The notes beneath the pieces are model-generated. The model ran no database searches and was not told the origin of the DNA. It was given only the letters and a program-made list of their open reading frames with translations. Below, one piece after another: positions 16,921 through 28,137 of a DNA stretch of 36,085 nt. The DNA is from a virus: positions 1 to 36,085 of IMG/VR virus record IMGVR_UViG_3300025759_000278; one strand, written 5' to 3'. The position numbers and the translations under genes were made by a program. Positions within the stretch are counted from its first letter, which is position 1. Every line of letters starts with the position of its first letter.

Positions 16921-17060
16921 GTGAATTATATCATACATTAATACATCTATTAGGTTTATGTGGAGAGCCACATCCTAGTCTATTTACAATTATAGCGGCT
17001 ATGATTGCTCTACCATTTAAATCTGTAGTATTATATATCATAGAGAAGTTAAATATATGA
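16917..17060 (+). CDS. 47-residue membrane micro-protein
   Basis: This frame is linked by ATGA overlaps on both sides. It encodes MSELYHTLIHLLGLCGEPHP and a hydrophobic segment SLFTIIAAMIALPFKSVVLY before EKLNI, so it is probably a single-pass membrane protein. The LGLCGExHPS motif is one I associate with short proteins in other marine phages, from memory. No function is known. Confidence 0.6.
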   Translation: MSELYHTLIHLLGLCGEPHPSLFTIIAAMIALPFKSVVLYIIEKLNI

Positions 17061-18433
17061 ATACGTATTTATGTGGAGAGTGTGATGATGTCTACGATGA
17101 GACATTTCTAGCATATTCTCAGATATTAGACCGACAGATATGCCATAATTGCTGTAGCACTAAATGTAGAGACTGCGATTTTTGTGGAGAAACAATATAT
17201 TACGAGAATTTTACTCTACGTATACCATTGACAGATGAAGAGATAGTAAAAGTTAAAGAGATGTTTGCTAAATATGATTGTGAATATATATGTAGGGCCT
17301 GTATACATAGCACATATCGTAGATGTGATGATTGTCCTAGTGTTGATTTTATAGATTTAAATCTATCTGACGATGAGATATATCTAAGAGACGAATGGTA
17401 TCAAGATGAGAGATGGAATAGAATTAGAAATAGAATACTTGAGCCTCGTAAAGCGTATTTGCTAGAGAAGTACAATGTCTATGGTAGTTGCCACTATTGC
17501 AATGATTGTTACGACAATGTAGTAGAATCTACGGCTATCAATCCTACTAGGTCGTTACGTAGAGAAGATTTTAAACCTAGTATAAATGATAGAAATAATA
17601 TTAAGAGACATGTAGGTATAGAGACAGAGATGCTTTACGATGAGTTAAAAGATATGGATGTAAGCGAATTAGATAGCTATGATATAGAGCATTATATAGA
17701 TACTCCAAACTATTGGGATGGAGTCTACGATGGCTCTCTCAGTAATGGTGGTGTAGAGCTTAGAACTCGTAGACCTGTAGTTGGAGACGATATATCTGTA
17801 GCTATAGATAGTTTACGTAGTAATATAAATTCGTATATGCCCGAAGTAGATAATTCATGTGGTGTACATATACATTTCAATGCTCTAGATTTTGGTTATG
17901 TAGAACTAAAGAATTTACTATATGTTATGAAAGGTATAGAGCATGTAATATATAAATCATTGCCAAATAATAGAATAGCTAATAGATATTGTAAATCTAT
18001 AGACTCTTTAAATTATAGTGATTTAGAAAAAGTAGATAATATGAGTTCTCTACATAAGCTATATTATAATAAAATAGCTGATACGATACCCGATAACCAC
18101 CACTACAATGGTGCTAGATATCAAGGCCTAAATCTACATGCTAGGTTTTTTCTAGGAACTATAGAATTTAGATATCATGAGGGTACTACGAATGTAGATA
18201 ATATAATGTCATGGATAAATCTATGTAATTGGATAGTAGACGCATCTAAGATGATGTCTATGGAGAAAAAATTATCTCGAGAACAGAGAAAGTGGAGAGA
18301 TAAGTTAAGAGATACATTTATATATAGTAAATGTATAAAAACGACACCTATAGAGCGTATAGCTTTGATAGGTGGTAGAGATTCAGCTGACTATATAAGT
18401 GAGAGGATATCTAAAAATAGTAAAATACAATAA
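17057..18433 (+). CDS. amidoligase 1 with N-terminal zinc ribbons
   Basis: This encodes 458 residues. Residues 1–155 hold several CxxC knuckles (C6/C9, C29/C32, C37/C40, C79/C82, C90/C93, C145/C148), so two or three zinc ribbons. From residue 185 comes a GS-fold COOH-NH2 ligase (Amidoligase_2, PF12224 type): VGIETE 186–191, YDGSL 224–228, GGVELRT 231–237, CGVHIHF 268–274, and near residue 370 LNLHARFFLGTIEFRYHEGT. These residues bind ATP, metal and acid substrate in the family. It would join a carboxylate to an amine, making an amide or peptide bond; the substrate is unknown. A paralogue lies two genes downstream, with a glutaminase between, all in one operon. Confidence 0.85.
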   Translation: MNTYLCGECDDVYDETFLAYSQILDRQICHNCCSTKCRDCDFCGETIYYENFTLRIPLTDEEIVKVKEMFAKYDCEYICRACIHSTYRRCDDCPSVDFIDLNLSDDEIYLRDEWYQDERWNRIRNRILEPRKAYLLEKYNVYGSCHYCNDCYDNVVESTAINPTRSLRREDFKPSINDRNNIKRHVGIETEMLYDELKDMDVSELDSYDIEHYIDTPNYWDGVYDGSLSNGGVELRTRRPVVGDDISVAIDSLRSNINSYMPEVDNSCGVHIHFNALDFGYVELKNLLYVMKGIEHVIYKSLPNNRIANRYCKSIDSLNYSDLEKVDNMSSLHKLYYNKIADTIPDNHHYNGARYQGLNLHARFFLGTIEFRYHEGTTNVDNIMSWINLCNWIVDASKMMSMEKKLSREQRKWRDKLRDTFIYSKCIKTTPIERIALIGGRDSADYISERISKNSKIQ

Positions 18434-18451
18434 CAAAATAGGAGAGAGAAT

Positions 18452-19531
18452 ATGTGTGGAATATTCGGTTTTGCGAAACAGAGTGGTCATCAGACAGACG
18501 CTCAGATAGATAAGCTAAGAGATGTATTTACAAATCTCGCTAGCGATTCTGTTGTGAGAGGTGAAGATAGTACTGGTGTCTCTATTATATCGCCCGATGA
18601 GAGAAGAACATTCAAGTCTATTGTAGCTTCAGACAAGATAGTCAAGCACGAGACATGGCGTTCTAACATCTTAGATAGGATTGATAGAGAATCAACTATA
18701 GGTATAGGCCATGTTAGACTAGCTACTCATGGAGATGTTACTATGCGTAATGCACATCCATTTGAGATAGGTAGTGTTCTAGGGGCACACAATGGAGTGA
18801 TACATAACTATAACGAGCTTGCTAAGAAATACAACAAATCTATTGAAGTAGATTCTGAGGTAATCTTTGCATATCTAAATAATATGTCAGATAGAGATGC
18901 TCTAGAGAAGTTAGAAGGAGACTATGCTCTATCTTGGGTAAAAGATAGTAATAGGATAGTACATCTAGCTAGAGAATCTAGTAGACCTATATCTGTAGCT
19001 TATTGGAAGAAGGCTCGTATATTATTATGGGCATCTACTAGTCATATATTAGAGAATGCTATGCACGATGCAGGCCTTACTCTTAAACACCATAGTCTAT
19101 TAGTAAATAATATATACTCATTTAATACTGATAACTTTGGTAGTAAGACTGCAGTAGAGAAGTCTACATTCAAGCCTAAGGAGAGTGCTCGTAGTTTATA
19201 CTCCAACTCTAGTTGGAAGTATGCTACGACATACTATGGAGGATACTACGACAATACTAACGATAGTTGTGTAATAGACGATAGTCCTGCTAAATATACT
19301 TGCGAGACTTGTAGAAATTCTGATTATGATTATAATATGATAGATGTAGGAGATAACGTATCTATATGCTACGAGTGTTACGAGGATGTAGAGGCTTGCG
19401 AATGGTGTGGAGATTATGTATTCGGTGCAGAGTTAGTTGAGAGAGGTTTATATAAGGTATGCTCTCTATGTACTAATGATGTTAGTAATACTCTATATCT
19501 ACCCGAAGCAAATGGTATAGTATCAGCTTAA
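18452..19531 (+). CDS. class II glutamine amidotransferase with C-terminal zinc ribbons
   Basis: This 359-residue protein has the N-terminal nucleophile Cys2 after Met removal (MCGIFGF), the glutamine-binding HVRLATHG at 87–94, the oxyanion AHNG at 112–115, and GDYAL at 156–160, all typical of GATase_2/Ntn hydrolases. There is no synthase domain as in GlmS, PurF or AsnB. Instead the C-terminus has four CxxC pairs (C284/C287, C306/C309, C316/C319, C337/C340), i.e. two zinc ribbons similar to those in the flanking amidoligases. It should release ammonia from glutamine or move a glutamyl group. A GGAGAGAG ribosome site precedes it. Placement between the amidoligases suggests that it feeds them. 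Confidence 0.85.
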   Translation: MCGIFGFAKQSGHQTDAQIDKLRDVFTNLASDSVVRGEDSTGVSIISPDERRTFKSIVASDKIVKHETWRSNILDRIDRESTIGIGHVRLATHGDVTMRNAHPFEIGSVLGAHNGVIHNYNELAKKYNKSIEVDSEVIFAYLNNMSDRDALEKLEGDYALSWVKDSNRIVHLARESSRPISVAYWKKARILLWASTSHILENAMHDAGLTLKHHSLLVNNIYSFNTDNFGSKTAVEKSTFKPKESARSLYSNSSWKYATTYYGGYYDNTNDSCVIDDSPAKYTCETCRNSDYDYNMIDVGDNVSICYECYEDVEACEWCGDYVFGAELVERGLYKVCSLCTNDVSNTLYLPEANGIVSA

Positions 19532-19543
19532 ATAGGAGAGAGT

Positions 19544-19837
19544 ATGAAAGATAAGAAAGTTATCTTACTAGGATTTCCTAATCCTATTAAGATGAGAAAC
19601 AAAGAGTATGTCTTAGAAAAGCTATACGAGAAAGCAAAGTCTAATCCATTTATACATGGTAAGACATTCAAAGAGTATAGAGAGTTTCTTTGTGTCCAGA
19701 TCAAAGACTTTGGAGACATTGAAGTTGATTCTAGAGATACTGATAAAATATATGATTCATTAAAATCTATGGGTTGGATAAAAGTAATAAACGCTGTCGT
19801 GCTTGCTATTATCTCTAGCCATACTGCTATCTCATAG
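19544..19837 (+). CDS. 97-residue protein of the amidoligase operon, unknown
   Basis: ATG 19544 follows GGAGAGAG. The 97 residues begin with a beta strand and a basic turn (MKDKKVILLGFPNPIKMRNK), then helices (EYVLEKLYEKAKSNPFIHGK) and end in a hydrophobic stretch (VINAVVLAIISSHTAIS) that could be membrane-associated. No family is recognised. It lies between the glutaminase and amidoligase 2 with 12- and 9-base gaps, so it is probably part of the same pathway, perhaps as carrier, substrate or scaffold. That role is inferred from context only. Confidence 0.55.
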   Translation: MKDKKVILLGFPNPIKMRNKEYVLEKLYEKAKSNPFIHGKTFKEYREFLCVQIKDFGDIEVDSRDTDKIYDSLKSMGWIKVINAVVLAIISSHTAIS

Positions 19838-19846
19838 GAGGATGTG

Positions 19847-21163
19847 ATGCCTCCAGATACCAATAGAGAAAATAACTCTACTCAATCTGAAGAGAATAGC
19901 CAAGACGTATACGTATGCGATGGCTGTGAAGAAGAAAGAGATAGAGGAGATGATGGCGAGAATCTTACTAGACATGGTGAATGTATATGTGATGAATGTA
20001 GAGATGAAAATTACTATAGCTGCAATGATTGTTGTGAGCTAGAACATATACACGACTCATATCTAGGGCCTGATGATTGCTACTACTGCGAAAATTGTAG
20101 AGACAATTCATTTTCGTATTGTGAGAGTTGCGATGTAGCAGAGTGGCACGATGAAATGAGATATGTAGAAAGTACATCTATGTATCTATGTGATAGTTGT
20201 TACGAAGAAGAATGTTGCGACCCTCATAATCATATAGAGAATGCACCATCATCTGTGAGTGTTACTCATCATAGAACTGAAGATACATCTAAATTAGATG
20301 TAAAGAGACTAGTGGGTATAGAATCAGAAGTTACTATGTATAATCCCGAGACAGATGGTGATGGATATGCTCTCGCATATTATAGAGATAATATACCTAA
20401 GTCTTGGAGAGAAGTACATGATGGTAGTATAGAAGGAGAGTATGGTAGAGAGTTAATTTCGTCTCCAGCTAATGGCAATATACTAGATGCAAGAATACGA
20501 GAACTTACTCAATGGGCACATACATATCGTGCTAGACCTAATCACTCTTGTGGGTTACATATACATATAGATGCTACAGATACAGATTGGAATGATTTAA
20601 GATGGATAGCTCTAGTTATGAAAAAGCTAGAATATAATATATTCGATATGCTACCACCAAGTAGACGAGGCAGTAATTGGTGTAAGAAGGTAGAGATGAG
20701 TTTCGAAGACCTACGAGATTGTACTGACGGAGAACGTTTTGTAGAAATGTACTACGATGGATATGGTATAAGTAATGAGAAATATAACGATAGTAGATAC
20801 CATGGATTAAATCTACATTCTAGATACTACTTAGGCACTATAGAGTTTCGATATCACTCTGGTACGACTAACTATGAGAAGATATATAATTGGATTAGAC
20901 TATGTAACTCTGTTGTAGAGACTGGTATATATATAGCTAGATGTAAAGACTCTAATGATGAGAAGTATAAGAAGCTAGTTCAATTCTATACAGAACATAC
21001 TGACTACAATATGGAAAAGTCTACATGGAATCAGATCTTAGACAATATGATTGGTGTAGATGATAAACTTCGTAGATATATATTTACTCGTATACAAAAG
21101 TTTACACCAGAGAGCCCAGACTTGAGAGAAACAAGAACTAAAAACATACTAAAGGAGGTATAA
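19847..21163 (+). CDS. amidoligase 2 with N-terminal zinc ribbons
   Basis: ATG 19847, five bases after AGGAGG, gives 438 residues (GTG one codon earlier is less likely). Six CxxC pairs occupy residues 24–118 (24/27, 48/51, 59/62, 81/84, 92/95, 115/118). The GS-fold amidoligase follows: VGIESE 156–161, HDGSI 191–195, GRELIS 200–205, CGLHIHI 235–241, then YHGLNLHSRYYLGTIEFRYH near residue 320 and a C-terminal helical tail. It is a diverged paralogue of the gene two places upstream, with changes in the catalytic loops (YDGSL to HDGSI, VELRT to RELIS). That suggests a different substrate or a heteromeric enzyme. The stop overlaps the next ATG. Confidence 0.85.
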   Translation: MPPDTNRENNSTQSEENSQDVYVCDGCEEERDRGDDGENLTRHGECICDECRDENYYSCNDCCELEHIHDSYLGPDDCYYCENCRDNSFSYCESCDVAEWHDEMRYVESTSMYLCDSCYEEECCDPHNHIENAPSSVSVTHHRTEDTSKLDVKRLVGIESEVTMYNPETDGDGYALAYYRDNIPKSWREVHDGSIEGEYGRELISSPANGNILDARIRELTQWAHTYRARPNHSCGLHIHIDATDTDWNDLRWIALVMKKLEYNIFDMLPPSRRGSNWCKKVEMSFEDLRDCTDGERFVEMYYDGYGISNEKYNDSRYHGLNLHSRYYLGTIEFRYHSGTTNYEKIYNWIRLCNSVVETGIYIARCKDSNDEKYKKLVQFYTEHTDYNMEKSTWNQILDNMIGVDDKLRRYIFTRIQKFTPESPDLRETRTKNILKEV

Positions 21164-25517: not shown

Positions 25518-25902
25518 GAAAGAGAAGTGTCCATATTGCAATAGACTTATGAATGTTGTAGACTATACTGCAGGTATACAAAACCTTACTCTAGCTAAAC
25601 CAAAAGATATTGTAAGTGAGGTTAGAAAAGTACTTGGACTTATACATAACAACGTTCAAGAGATTGAGCAGTCTCAATACTATATGTTTTTAAATGAGAC
25701 TAAGGATATAAGTAACTCTATAATGAAAGAATCTATGCGTAAGTTTATAGATAAAAATCATATAGACAAAGGTCATGGTATACATTACTTATTAACAATG
25801 ATAAAAGGCATAAACCATACTAAAAAAATGGAGAAAGAATACGAGAGAAAGACTCTAGATAGAATGCCACCAGTAAAGGAGGTAGTTAATGATAGAACCT
25901 AG
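25504..25902 (+). CDS. 132-residue helical protein with CPYC motif
   Basis: ATG 25504 gives 132 residues; an ATG four codons earlier is also possible. It begins MDVPKKEKCPYCNRLMNVVD (one CxxC knuckle) and continues as a long helical region (VRKVLGLIHNNVQEIEQSQY, then MKESMRKFIDKNHIDKGHGI) ending in a charged tail. With only one Cys pair it may bind metal as a dimer or with a partner. It overlaps both neighbours and sits just before the helicase, so it may be a helicase loader or accessory protein; this is inferred from order. Confidence 0.55.
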   Translation: MDVPKKEKCPYCNRLMNVVDYTAGIQNLTLAKPKDIVSEVRKVLGLIHNNVQEIEQSQYYMFLNETKDISNSIMKESMRKFIDKNHIDKGHGIHYLLTMIKGINHTKKMEKEYERKTLDRMPPVKEVVNDRT

Positions 25903-27220
25903 GCTAGAAGATACTCTACTTGGTTGCGTAATGCAAGACTCATCTAAGTTAACCTTAGTAAAGTCGTGGATTCCCGAAGATGATTTCTTCTACTCTGATT
26001 TAAATAAGCGTATATGGAAAACTATTCTTAAGTTAGAAGACAGAGGATACGAGATTGATGTAAATACCGTTTGCAATTCTATAGAGAAAACTAAGTTTGA
26101 TAATAACTTAACATATACTATATTAGGGTATATGGATTTAGTTGTATCTACAGAAAGAACATCTGATTATTGCAAACTATTACACGCTGAATACTTAAGA
26201 AGAAAACTTCAAACTCAAGTGTATGGCATACAAAAGAATATAGGAGATAATTCTTTAGAGACACAAGTATTACTTGAAGATGCGCATACTACTATAGGTA
26301 ACATTATTAGGTTACAACCTAACTCTAGCTTTAGTATAGAAGATGTATTGAAAGATACTACTAAGTCTATATTTGAAAAAGAGAATCTTATAAACACAGG
26401 TATAAATATACTTGATAGTGTTATCTCTGGTATGACAAGAGGAGAGATAAGTATTATAGCTGGTAGACCCGGAAATGCTAAGACAACCGTAGCTGCGAAC
26501 ATAGCGAGAAATCTAATCAATCAAGGTAAGAAAGTAGTTATGTTCAATAGAGAAATGCCCAATGTAGAGATGATGAAAAAGTTTATGGCTATGGAGTCTC
26601 AAAGTATTTCATACAGAAATCTAAGACATAATATAGACATATCTGATTCAGATATATCTAGTGTATCAGATATAATAAAAGAAAAGTACACAGATAAGTT
26701 GTTTATGTTTGATGAAATAAGAGACTTAGATGGTTCTTTTAGAGAGATAAAAGCTATCAATCCCGATGTAGTTATAGATGACCATATAGGTTTGATAGAG
26801 TACCCAGTAAATGATAATAGAGATTTGAGAATAAAGATAGGAGACACTACTAGAAAGTATAAGTGGTTAGCAAAAGCAGAGAAGATGTCTGTAATACTTG
26901 TATCTCAAATGAATAGAAACATGGAACATAGAAACGATAGAGTACCTAGGCTATCTGACTTAGCTGAGTCTGGTAACTTAGAACAAGATGCAGAGATGGT
27001 TATGTTTACTCACTATCCTTGGGTATCTAGATACGGAGATGATGGTAATAGTGAATGTTACTTAGAACTTATAGTAGCTAAGAATAGATATGGAAATACT
27101 AACTTGTGTAAGGTTGGTTATGATGGAAATACTTGTACGATACACGAGACAGAAGAATCAGCTATGAGTTCTATGCAAAGTAGAGGAGAGAAGATAAAGA
27201 AAATGGAGTTATTCGATTAA
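25889..27220 (+). CDS. replicative DNA helicase, DnaB family
   Basis: This encodes 443 residues. The N-terminal domain (about 1–110) is the helical DnaB-N type, opening MIEPRLEDTLLGCVMQDSSK. A linker leads to the RecA-like motor: TGINILDSVISGMTRGEISI, Walker A GRPGNAKTT (192–200), FNREMPNVEMMKKFMA (motif H1a-like), the Walker B region NPDVVIDDHIGLIEY, and SQMNRNMEHRNDRVPRLSDL with AESGNLEQDAEMVMF, which is the typical H4 and arginine-finger section. It unwinds DNA as a hexamer at the phage fork. No primase or polymerase is recognised beside it. Its stop overlaps the methyltransferase ATG. Confidence 0.9.
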   Translation: MIEPRLEDTLLGCVMQDSSKLTLVKSWIPEDDFFYSDLNKRIWKTILKLEDRGYEIDVNTVCNSIEKTKFDNNLTYTILGYMDLVVSTERTSDYCKLLHAEYLRRKLQTQVYGIQKNIGDNSLETQVLLEDAHTTIGNIIRLQPNSSFSIEDVLKDTTKSIFEKENLINTGINILDSVISGMTRGEISIIAGRPGNAKTTVAANIARNLINQGKKVVMFNREMPNVEMMKKFMAMESQSISYRNLRHNIDISDSDISSVSDIIKEKYTDKLFMFDEIRDLDGSFREIKAINPDVVIDDHIGLIEYPVNDNRDLRIKIGDTTRKYKWLAKAEKMSVILVSQMNRNMEHRNDRVPRLSDLAESGNLEQDAEMVMFTHYPWVSRYGDDGNSECYLELIVAKNRYGNTNLCKVGYDGNTCTIHETEESAMSSMQSRGEKIKKMELFD

Positions 27221-28137
27221 TGAAAATGCTAGATTTGTTTAGTGGTATAGGTGGGTTCGCTCTTGCCGCTAAGTGGACTTGGAAAGAAGATCTGGAGATA
27301 GCAGGCTTCTGCGAGATAGAGGAGTTTTGTTGCAAAGTTCTAGAGAAAAACTTTCCTAGAGTTCCTATATACAAAGATATAACAGAACTAGATGGTAATT
27401 TATTTAACGATATAGACTTGATAACTGGAGGTTTCCCTTGTCAAGATATATCACAAGCAGGGAGAGGAGAAGGAATTGAAAAAGGAACAAGGTCTGGTCT
27501 TTGGTTCGAAATGCTTAGAGTTATTAGCGAAGTACGACCAAAGTTCGTCATCATTGAAAATGTCCCAATGCTCACTATTCGAGGAGGAACAAGAGTTATT
27601 GAAGGTCTTGCCGAAATCGGGTATGATGCAGAGTGGACTGTTGTGGGAGCAAACGAAGTTGGAGCTAGACACATTAGAAAAAGACTTTGGATTGTGGCCT
27701 ACACCAACAGCATCGGACAATCAAGGAGCACCTCAGAAGAATGTAGAACTGAGGAACGGCTCGTTCTCGAGAGTGAACAAGAAAGGACAGAGGTGGGGAG
27801 TGAAACTAAAGGACGCAGTACACTTCATAGAGAAGAGAGTAAACTTTCCGACACCAACAAAGTCAGACGTTTACATAGCGACATTGAAGAGCAATCAAAC
27901 GAAGAAGACATCGAAGCACTCAGTAAGTCTAGGGAAAGCAGTTACGACACACAAAGACTTATATCCGATACCCACTCGAAACCAGAAAACGGAGCCGACT
28001 ACTGGGCGTTTGAACCCTCTATGGGTAGAGTGGCTGATGGGATTCCCGATTGGGTGGACAGAATTAAAGGACTCGGAAACGCAATAGTTCCACAAGTTGC
28101 GAGAGTCGTAATGGAGAGGATAAAACCTCTAATCTAG
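27220..28137 (+). CDS. cytosine-5 DNA methyltransferase
   Basis: This encodes 305 residues. Motif I is LDLFSGIGGFALA (4–16), motif II FCEIEEFC, motif IV GGFPCQDIS with catalytic Cys74, motif VI ENV (113–115), motif VIII RHIRKR (150–155), and motif X GLGNAIVPQVA near residue 287. All catalytic motifs are present, so it should transfer methyl from S-adenosylmethionine to C5 of cytosine. The stretch between motif VIII and the C-terminal motifs (about 165–262) is a low-complexity Ser/Glu/Arg/Thr linker with little predicted fold; this part is also coded in the +1 frame by another gene. It would protect phage DNA from host restriction. It is the last gene of the early arm and meets the minus-strand virion gene with a nine-base overlap. 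Confidence 0.9.
   Translation: MKMLDLFSGIGGFALAAKWTWKEDLEIAGFCEIEEFCCKVLEKNFPRVPIYKDITELDGNLFNDIDLITGGFPCQDISQAGRGEGIEKGTRSGLWFEMLRVISEVRPKFVIIENVPMLTIRGGTRVIEGLAEIGYDAEWTVVGANEVGARHIRKRLWIVAYTNSIGQSRSTSEECRTEERLVLESEQERTEVGSETKGRSTLHREESKLSDTNKVRRLHSDIEEQSNEEDIEALSKSRESSYDTQRLISDTHSKPENGADYWAFEPSMGRVADGIPDWVDRIKGLGNAIVPQVARVVMERIKPLI
27476..28087 (+). CDS. methyltransferase-associated protein encoded in the +1 frame inside the MTase gene
   Basis: TTG 27476, about six bases after GGAG, opens 203 codons lying entirely within the methyltransferase gene. The product has motifs that I know from separately encoded proteins next to phage cytosine methyltransferases: SLKMSQCSLFEE (26–37), LPKSGMMQSGLLW (45–57), LWPTPTASD (73–81), FPTPTKSD near 115, and a C-terminal LNPLWVEWLMGFPIGWTEL. 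Function is unknown to me. The DNA coding LWPTPTAS also codes the methyltransferase LWIVAYTN, and the DNA for IGWTELKD codes DWVDRIKG, so both frames seem conserved. This is unlike a chance shadow frame, which would not recover a known motif series in order. Confidence 0.7.
   Translation: MKKEQGLVFGSKCLELLAKYDQSSSSLKMSQCSLFEEEQELLKVLPKSGMMQSGLLWEQTKLELDTLEKDFGLWPTPTASDNQGAPQKNVELRNGSFSRVNKKGQRWGVKLKDAVHFIEKRVNFPTPTKSDVYIATLKSNQTKKTSKHSVSLGKAVTTHKDLYPIPTRNQKTEPTTGRLNPLWVEWLMGFPIGWTELKDSETQ

Follow-up and report, generated by a model that had tools for sequence, protein, structure and literature searches.

A gene nested in the +1 frame of a phage C5 cytosine methyltransferase most likely encodes a second subunit of the same enzyme

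Introduction

Does a 203-codon open reading frame that lies wholly inside a viral cytosine methyltransferase gene encode a protein of its own and, if so, what is that protein to the enzyme whose gene surrounds it? The locus belongs to virus record IMGVR_UViG_3300025759_000278, whose 36,085 bases constitute the window analyzed here. The record also encodes a terminase, a major head protein, a DnaB-like helicase and an amidoligase, and a glutamine amidotransferase-like gene is found between two amidoligase-like genes at 17057-21163. A preliminary description of the DNA had proposed that the inner frame is a genuine gene, that the two products form a compact module, and that the arrangement is a strong candidate for an undescribed one.

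Complementation between fragments of C5 methyltransferases is well documented, and for M.SssI it is most effective when the chain is cut between motif VIII and the target-recognition domain (TRD) (PMC3404938). M.EcoHK31I is a natural two-polypeptide C5 methyltransferase: its large subunit has motifs I-VIII and X, the TRD has been placed there too, and its small subunit has motif IX (PMC3404938).

Results

The locus

Both frames are read from the plus strand. The outer frame (alpha, 27220-28137) encodes a 305-residue C5 cytosine methyltransferase that matches PF00145 with E=4e-46. It contains motif I (DLFSGIGG, 27232-27255), motif IV with the PCQ signature and catalytic Cys (GGFPCQDIS, 27427-27453), motif VI with ENV (IIENVPM, 27550-27570), motif VIII (RHIRKRLWIVA, 27667-27699) and motif X (GLGNAIVPQVA, 28069-28101). 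Alpha shares this catalytic core, motifs I-VIII and X, with M.HhaI and M.HaeIII (PF00145), but those enzymes carry the TRD and motif IX in one chain, whereas alpha shows no constrained TRD or motif IX in the interval between motifs VIII and X and departs there from the PF00145 layout. A Ser/Glu/Arg linker occupies the interval instead (27700-28038). Matches of alpha to HhaI and HaeIII in the PDB end at residue ~166, and the PF00145 span, which covers residues 2-322 in canonical methyltransferases, mostly extends only to about 165-205 in loci of the nested type. The DnaB-like helicase gene (25889-27220) is directly 5' of alpha and overlaps it by one base in TAATG, which suggests translational coupling.

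The inner frame (beta, 27476-28087; 203 codons) is in +1 phase, lies entirely within alpha and begins with TTG, 6 nt downstream of a Shine-Dalgarno-like AGGAG (27465-27469). Its N-terminal conserved block (SSLKMSQCSLF ... LPKSGMMQSG, 27548-27637) is placed over alpha motifs VI-VIII and shows +1-frame constraint. Module 1 (LWPTPTASD, 27692-27718) shares its bases with the LWIVAYTNS segment of alpha; it is followed by module 2 (NFPTPTKSD, 27842-27868), a degenerate module 3 (LYPIPTR, 27959-27979) and a segment assigned below to motif IX (LNPLWVEWLMGFPIGWTEL, 28010-28066). The beta sequence GFPIGWTELKD overlies alpha GIPDWVDRIKG, just before motif X. Read in the +1 frame, the alpha linker holds the beta modules and the start of beta motif IX. 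The coordinates, start site and shared motif positions given in the preliminary description are all borne out.

Occurrence of the nested frame

Synonymous codons of the window methyltransferase were shuffled with the protein and codon usage kept fixed. The nested frame then acquires 9.9 stops on average and stays open in none of 5000 shuffled genes. Stops in homologous +1 frames, which would speak against a gene, were sought in 287 loci; against an expectation of approximately 4 per locus there are none, so that 287/287 frames are open, a count that is partly conditioned because the loci were picked by homology. A wider set of 327 loci, of phage, bacterial and archaeal-bin origin, yields 329 matches to the nested-family HMM, and all but one of them (328) overlap a methyltransferase ORF in one and the same +1 phase. 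The single phase exception (L302) is indel-like.

The family is broadly distributed. Three scans of viral contigs each yielded at least 596 stretches with a match, and the genome loci come from Pseudomonadota, Bacillota, Bacteroidota, Actinomycetota, Verrucomicrobiota, Acidobacteriota and others, together with two archaeal bins. Named phages with such loci infect Acinetobacter, Paenibacillus, Lacticaseibacillus, Synechococcus, Porphyromonas, Mycobacterium, Vibrio, Klebsiella and Escherichia; the cultured Acinetobacter phage ABMM1 and Mycobacterium phage Aubs belong to the family. The nested gene is usually unannotated in phage and bacterial records, and a few phage annotations call both frames.

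Several individual records deserve mention. For L362, L396 and L400, the public annotation calls the nested frame and thereby displaces most of the methyltransferase; the labels are 'putative cytosine-specific methyltransferase', 'putative Mte8-like protein' and 'hypothetical protein'. The frame is broken in L302 by an indel that fuses the two frames and in L068 by a shift in a CA repeat; both look like indel or repeat-slippage cases. An Escherichia coli prophage copy (L401) has stops in both frames and is marked as a pseudogene by PGAP.

Homology of the nested product

Members of the nested family share an N-terminal block, whose consensus is SWKTSQ...TWPRSGMMRNGxxYQL, and a nearly invariant C-terminus, LNPxWVEWLMGFPxGWTDL; nearly all of them also carry PTPxAxD modules, from one to six per protein. 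The number of modules varies widely across the family. A profile search with beta of the window, as the preliminary description had suggested, identifies phrog_1008 ('DNA methyltransferase') with E=2e-22 over profile positions 66-281, and the same PHROG is matched by 102/102 aligned nested proteins. The PHROG entry is the nested family itself, under a name that is silent on subunit role and nesting. A PDB sequence search with the nested profile gave chance matches only.

The role of the C-terminus emerges from actinophage relatives in which the same segments are arranged differently. Ruin and Ryadel have two genes: alpha stops after motif VIII, and beta consists of modules, EWMMGWxxGW and then an in-frame motif X (IIGNGV...QQA), with a match of 1.7e-79 between Ruin beta and phrog_1008. 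In Nimbo gp63, Shauna1 gp67 and Leonard gp5, a single chain carries motifs I-VIII, LLPTP modules, RLAAAFPEWMMGWPAGWV and GNGVCPQQA, with slight variants of these motifs in Leonard gp5, and all three proteins are matched in frame by the nested-family HMM. Arthrobacter phage KBurrousTX gp80 (L434:355-1683) is a beta-only gene of the form modules-IX-X, with about seven LLPTP modules; it adjoins the 3' end of another gene annotated as a DNA methyltransferase.

These chains connect beta to canonical enzymes. With hhalign, the nested C-terminus aligns to the single-chain C-terminus with a probability of 96.7% (E=3e-10), and the latter aligns to 55 canonical C5 methyltransferases with 87.6% (E=3.5e-6), motifs IX and X being in register. 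The direct alignment of nested and canonical motif IX has the same register, though alone it is not significant (1.2%, E=0.046). Because the profile alignments run from nested to single-chain to canonical proteins, we assign LNPxWVEWLMGFPxGW to motif IX. On the evidence of these profiles, beta and the TRD-IX region of its single-chain relatives are homologous in frame. The PTPxAxD modules are placed between motifs VIII and IX, where a TRD belongs, and they most likely represent that domain and would recognize DNA.

Structure predictions add some detail. AlphaFold2 yields no confident fold for beta alone (pLDDT 61, pTM 0.29), and the model is too poor for a structure search. For L437, which is identical to Shauna1 gp67, the catalytic domain is confidently predicted (residues 1-~70 and 88-190, except 116-139), as is a C-terminal part (~367-450) that contains motifs IX and X. 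The best PDB matches of this model are M.HhaI and M.HaeIII over ~180 alignment columns. The modules have pLDDT values of 25-48 and amount to no model. The prediction agrees with the assignment of motifs IX and X and does not prove the role of the modules; since these are unmodeled and the beta fold is poor, their TRD label rests on position and exclusion.

Selection in the two frames

Substitutions in 64 independent pairs were classed by their effect in both frames in an OLGenie-like count. Upstream of the overlap, the methyltransferase frame has a dNN/dSN of 0.135, and a pseudo +1 frame in non-overlapping methyltransferase sequence sets a baseline dNN/dNS of about 0.62-0.64. Over the first 75 overlapping codons, the values are 0.24 for the methyltransferase and 0.41 for the nested frame, and the synonymous rate of the methyltransferase (dSN) falls from 0.47-0.48 upstream to 0.25-0.26. 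Beyond nested codon 75 the methyltransferase rises to 0.79 and the nested frame has a dNN/dNS of 0.24 (95% CI 0.20-0.29). The +1 product does not change freely, an outcome that would have counted against the proposed gene, but is under strong purifying selection. For the phase-2 control, the values within the overlap are 1.6-1.7, with 1.60 beyond nested codon 75.

Splitting 39 pairs by position locates the transition. By linker quarter, the methyltransferase frame scores 0.97, 1.14, 0.93 and 0.69, and the nested frame 0.25, 0.22, 0.26 and 0.17; at motif X the methyltransferase is constrained (0.26) and the nested frame is back to baseline (0.75). Comparison of the window with its nearest relative illustrates the pattern: there are 2 differences in the 218 bases where both frames are constrained, versus 31 in 262 bases upstream. 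Of 32 differences in the linker, 25 occupy third positions of nested codons, and together they alter 28/128 methyltransferase residues and 3/127 nested residues. Both frames are under protein-level selection. From the substitution pattern in the two frames we conclude that the nested gene is real and that, from motif VIII to motif X, the nested frame is effectively the gene. The suggestion that the other frame holds the constraint where alpha is a low-complexity linker is therefore upheld, and with it the view that the overprinted module is genuine. Being nearly neutral, the alpha linker could hardly contain a TRD.

As judged from homology and constraint, beta most likely serves as the second subunit of a methyltransferase split over two chains. 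It could also have an accessory role of its own, such as anti-restriction or regulation, sharing DNA with the enzyme and remaining outside it; beta is after all a full ORF that has its own start and no catalytic motifs, and it matches no family in Pfam, NCBIfam or PADLOC. We regard this as unlikely. In actinophages, the modules and motif IX are found in frame inside a methyltransferase, or on a beta protein together with motif X; the alpha frame lacks a constrained TRD or motif IX; and among the 327 loci no beta was found away from a methyltransferase.

The two frames could alternatively be joined by programmed ribosomal frameshifting from alpha into beta, producing a chimeric single chain. 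The constant +1 phase would suit such a mechanism, and in the split loci the order I-VIII-TRD-IX-X would result from one +1 shift close to motif VIII. In the nested form, however, a single shift would cost the chain motif X, which stays in frame 0. The +1 frame is also already constrained upstream of motif VIII (dNN/dNS 0.32), where the dSN of the methyltransferase falls, and therefore beta is translated there. SD-preceded starts near the nested N-terminus are likewise enriched in the +1 frame (206/291 loci; the remaining phases have 95 and 90), an enrichment that may be in part a by-product of the conserved alpha sequence GxGI. Given the early +1 constraint and the frame of motif X, we consider frameshifting very unlikely. 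That the nested frame is a passive open frame, conserved in the shadow of the methyltransferase, has a negligible chance of being correct: some of the +1 similarity over motifs V-VIII is indeed passive (baseline about 0.62-0.64), but this reading is contradicted by the substitution pattern, with the methyltransferase frame free and the nested frame conserved in the linker, and by the avoidance of stops.

Nested, split and single-chain forms

A FastTree phylogeny of the catalytic domain, midpoint-rooted and built from 143 sequences over 171 columns, groups the nested, split and single-chain forms together with a support of 0.998, apart from canonical methyltransferases; one canonical sequence falls within the nested-family group in a weakly supported position. 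The actinophage single-chain group is located inside nested-type lineages (supports 0.91-0.95), and the single chains therefore look like later re-fusions. Descent of the nested form from a single-chain ancestor through two frameshifts was considered and is unsupported, given this placement. The nested state looks old in this sample, with split and single-chain forms arising later as segments moved between frames, a direction that is provisional because the tree is quick, short and midpoint-rooted.

In the actinophage single-chain loci (L437, L439, L440, L448, L453 and others), the TRD and motifs IX and X are in frame 0, and a +1 ORF over motifs V-VIII is retained that corresponds to the beta N-terminal block and some LLPTP modules. 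The retained ORF appears constrained (0.33, versus 0.84 upstream), with few substitutions behind these values.

Discussion

We propose that the locus encodes one C5 methyltransferase as two polypeptides from the same DNA, and put the probability of this reading at roughly 0.8. Alpha, in frame 0, would contribute motifs I-VIII, for AdoMet binding and catalysis, together with motif X and the unconstrained linker that precedes it. Beta, in the +1 frame and with an independent start inside alpha, would consist of the N-terminal block, one to six PTPxAxD modules and motif IX, and is probably produced by internal initiation on the shared message. It would then bind alpha, supplying motif IX and the recognition modules, to form a single active heterodimer in which beta sets the sequence specificity of the predicted enzyme; the resulting methylation may protect phage DNA against host restriction. 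The preliminary description was right that there are two products and did not see that the nested one is a piece of the same enzyme, comprising motif IX and probably the TRD. Its remark that such proteins occur beside phage methyltransferases needs correcting: the gene is nearly always inside the methyltransferase gene, with a partly separate form in actinophages.

The split boundary in the window, between motif VIII and the TRD, coincides with the best cut in M.SssI. The closest parallel is M.EcoHK31I (YGGCCR), compared here by description: its alpha also has motifs I-VIII and X, and motif IX is on the small polypeptide. The small subunit of M.EcoHK31I (~176 residues) is also encoded in an alternative frame within the gene for alpha (309 residues), as in the window. 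The two differ in that the window alpha has a nearly neutral linker between motifs VIII and X, with recognition most likely on beta, and in that M.EcoHK31I is a member of a restriction-modification system, whereas the window carries a phage gene; no restriction gene is seen beside the window methyltransferase. A 309-residue PADLOC model, MTase_II, was considered as a relative of M.EcoHK31I and proved to be a canonical single-chain methyltransferase. The two-subunit C5 methyltransferase M.AquI (CYCGRG) is similarly split near the variable region, with motifs I-VIII on alpha, but has both IX and X on its beta, unlike the window, where motif X is on alpha. The AquI-like layout is found in the relatives Ruin, Ryadel and L048.

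The arrangement is thus not undescribed, as had first been suggested: M.EcoHK31I is a precedent (PMC3404938), phrog_1008 is already in PHROGs, and a few phage annotations call both frames. No earlier report of the nested phage family was found in the literature searched, which most subscription papers lie outside. Relative to M.EcoHK31I and M.AquI, the novelty lies in how widely the family occurs, in the evidence that both frames are under selection, in assigning recognition to beta, in the modular repeats and in segments having moved between frames. On balance we favor, with only modest confidence, the broader view that these loci form a large and mostly unannotated class of phage and prophage methyltransferases, in which a specificity subunit is overprinted on the catalytic gene and constraint passes from one frame to the other, the nested state being old and the modules and motifs having later moved to give split and single-chain forms.

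If this is true, the family would rank among the most widespread of the long same-strand gene overlaps that are known from anywhere but eukaryotic viruses. In hundreds of sampled loci, from many bacterial phyla and their phages, a single enzyme appears to be encoded twice on shared DNA. Annotation usually omits one of the two frames, and codon optimization that disrupts beta would cause cloning and functional studies of 'orphan' phage methyltransferases to fail or mislead. With its unequal, position-dependent constraint, the family gives detection methods for overlapping genes a strong natural benchmark, and the movement of modules from frame to frame would make both the origin and the reversal of overprinting testable.
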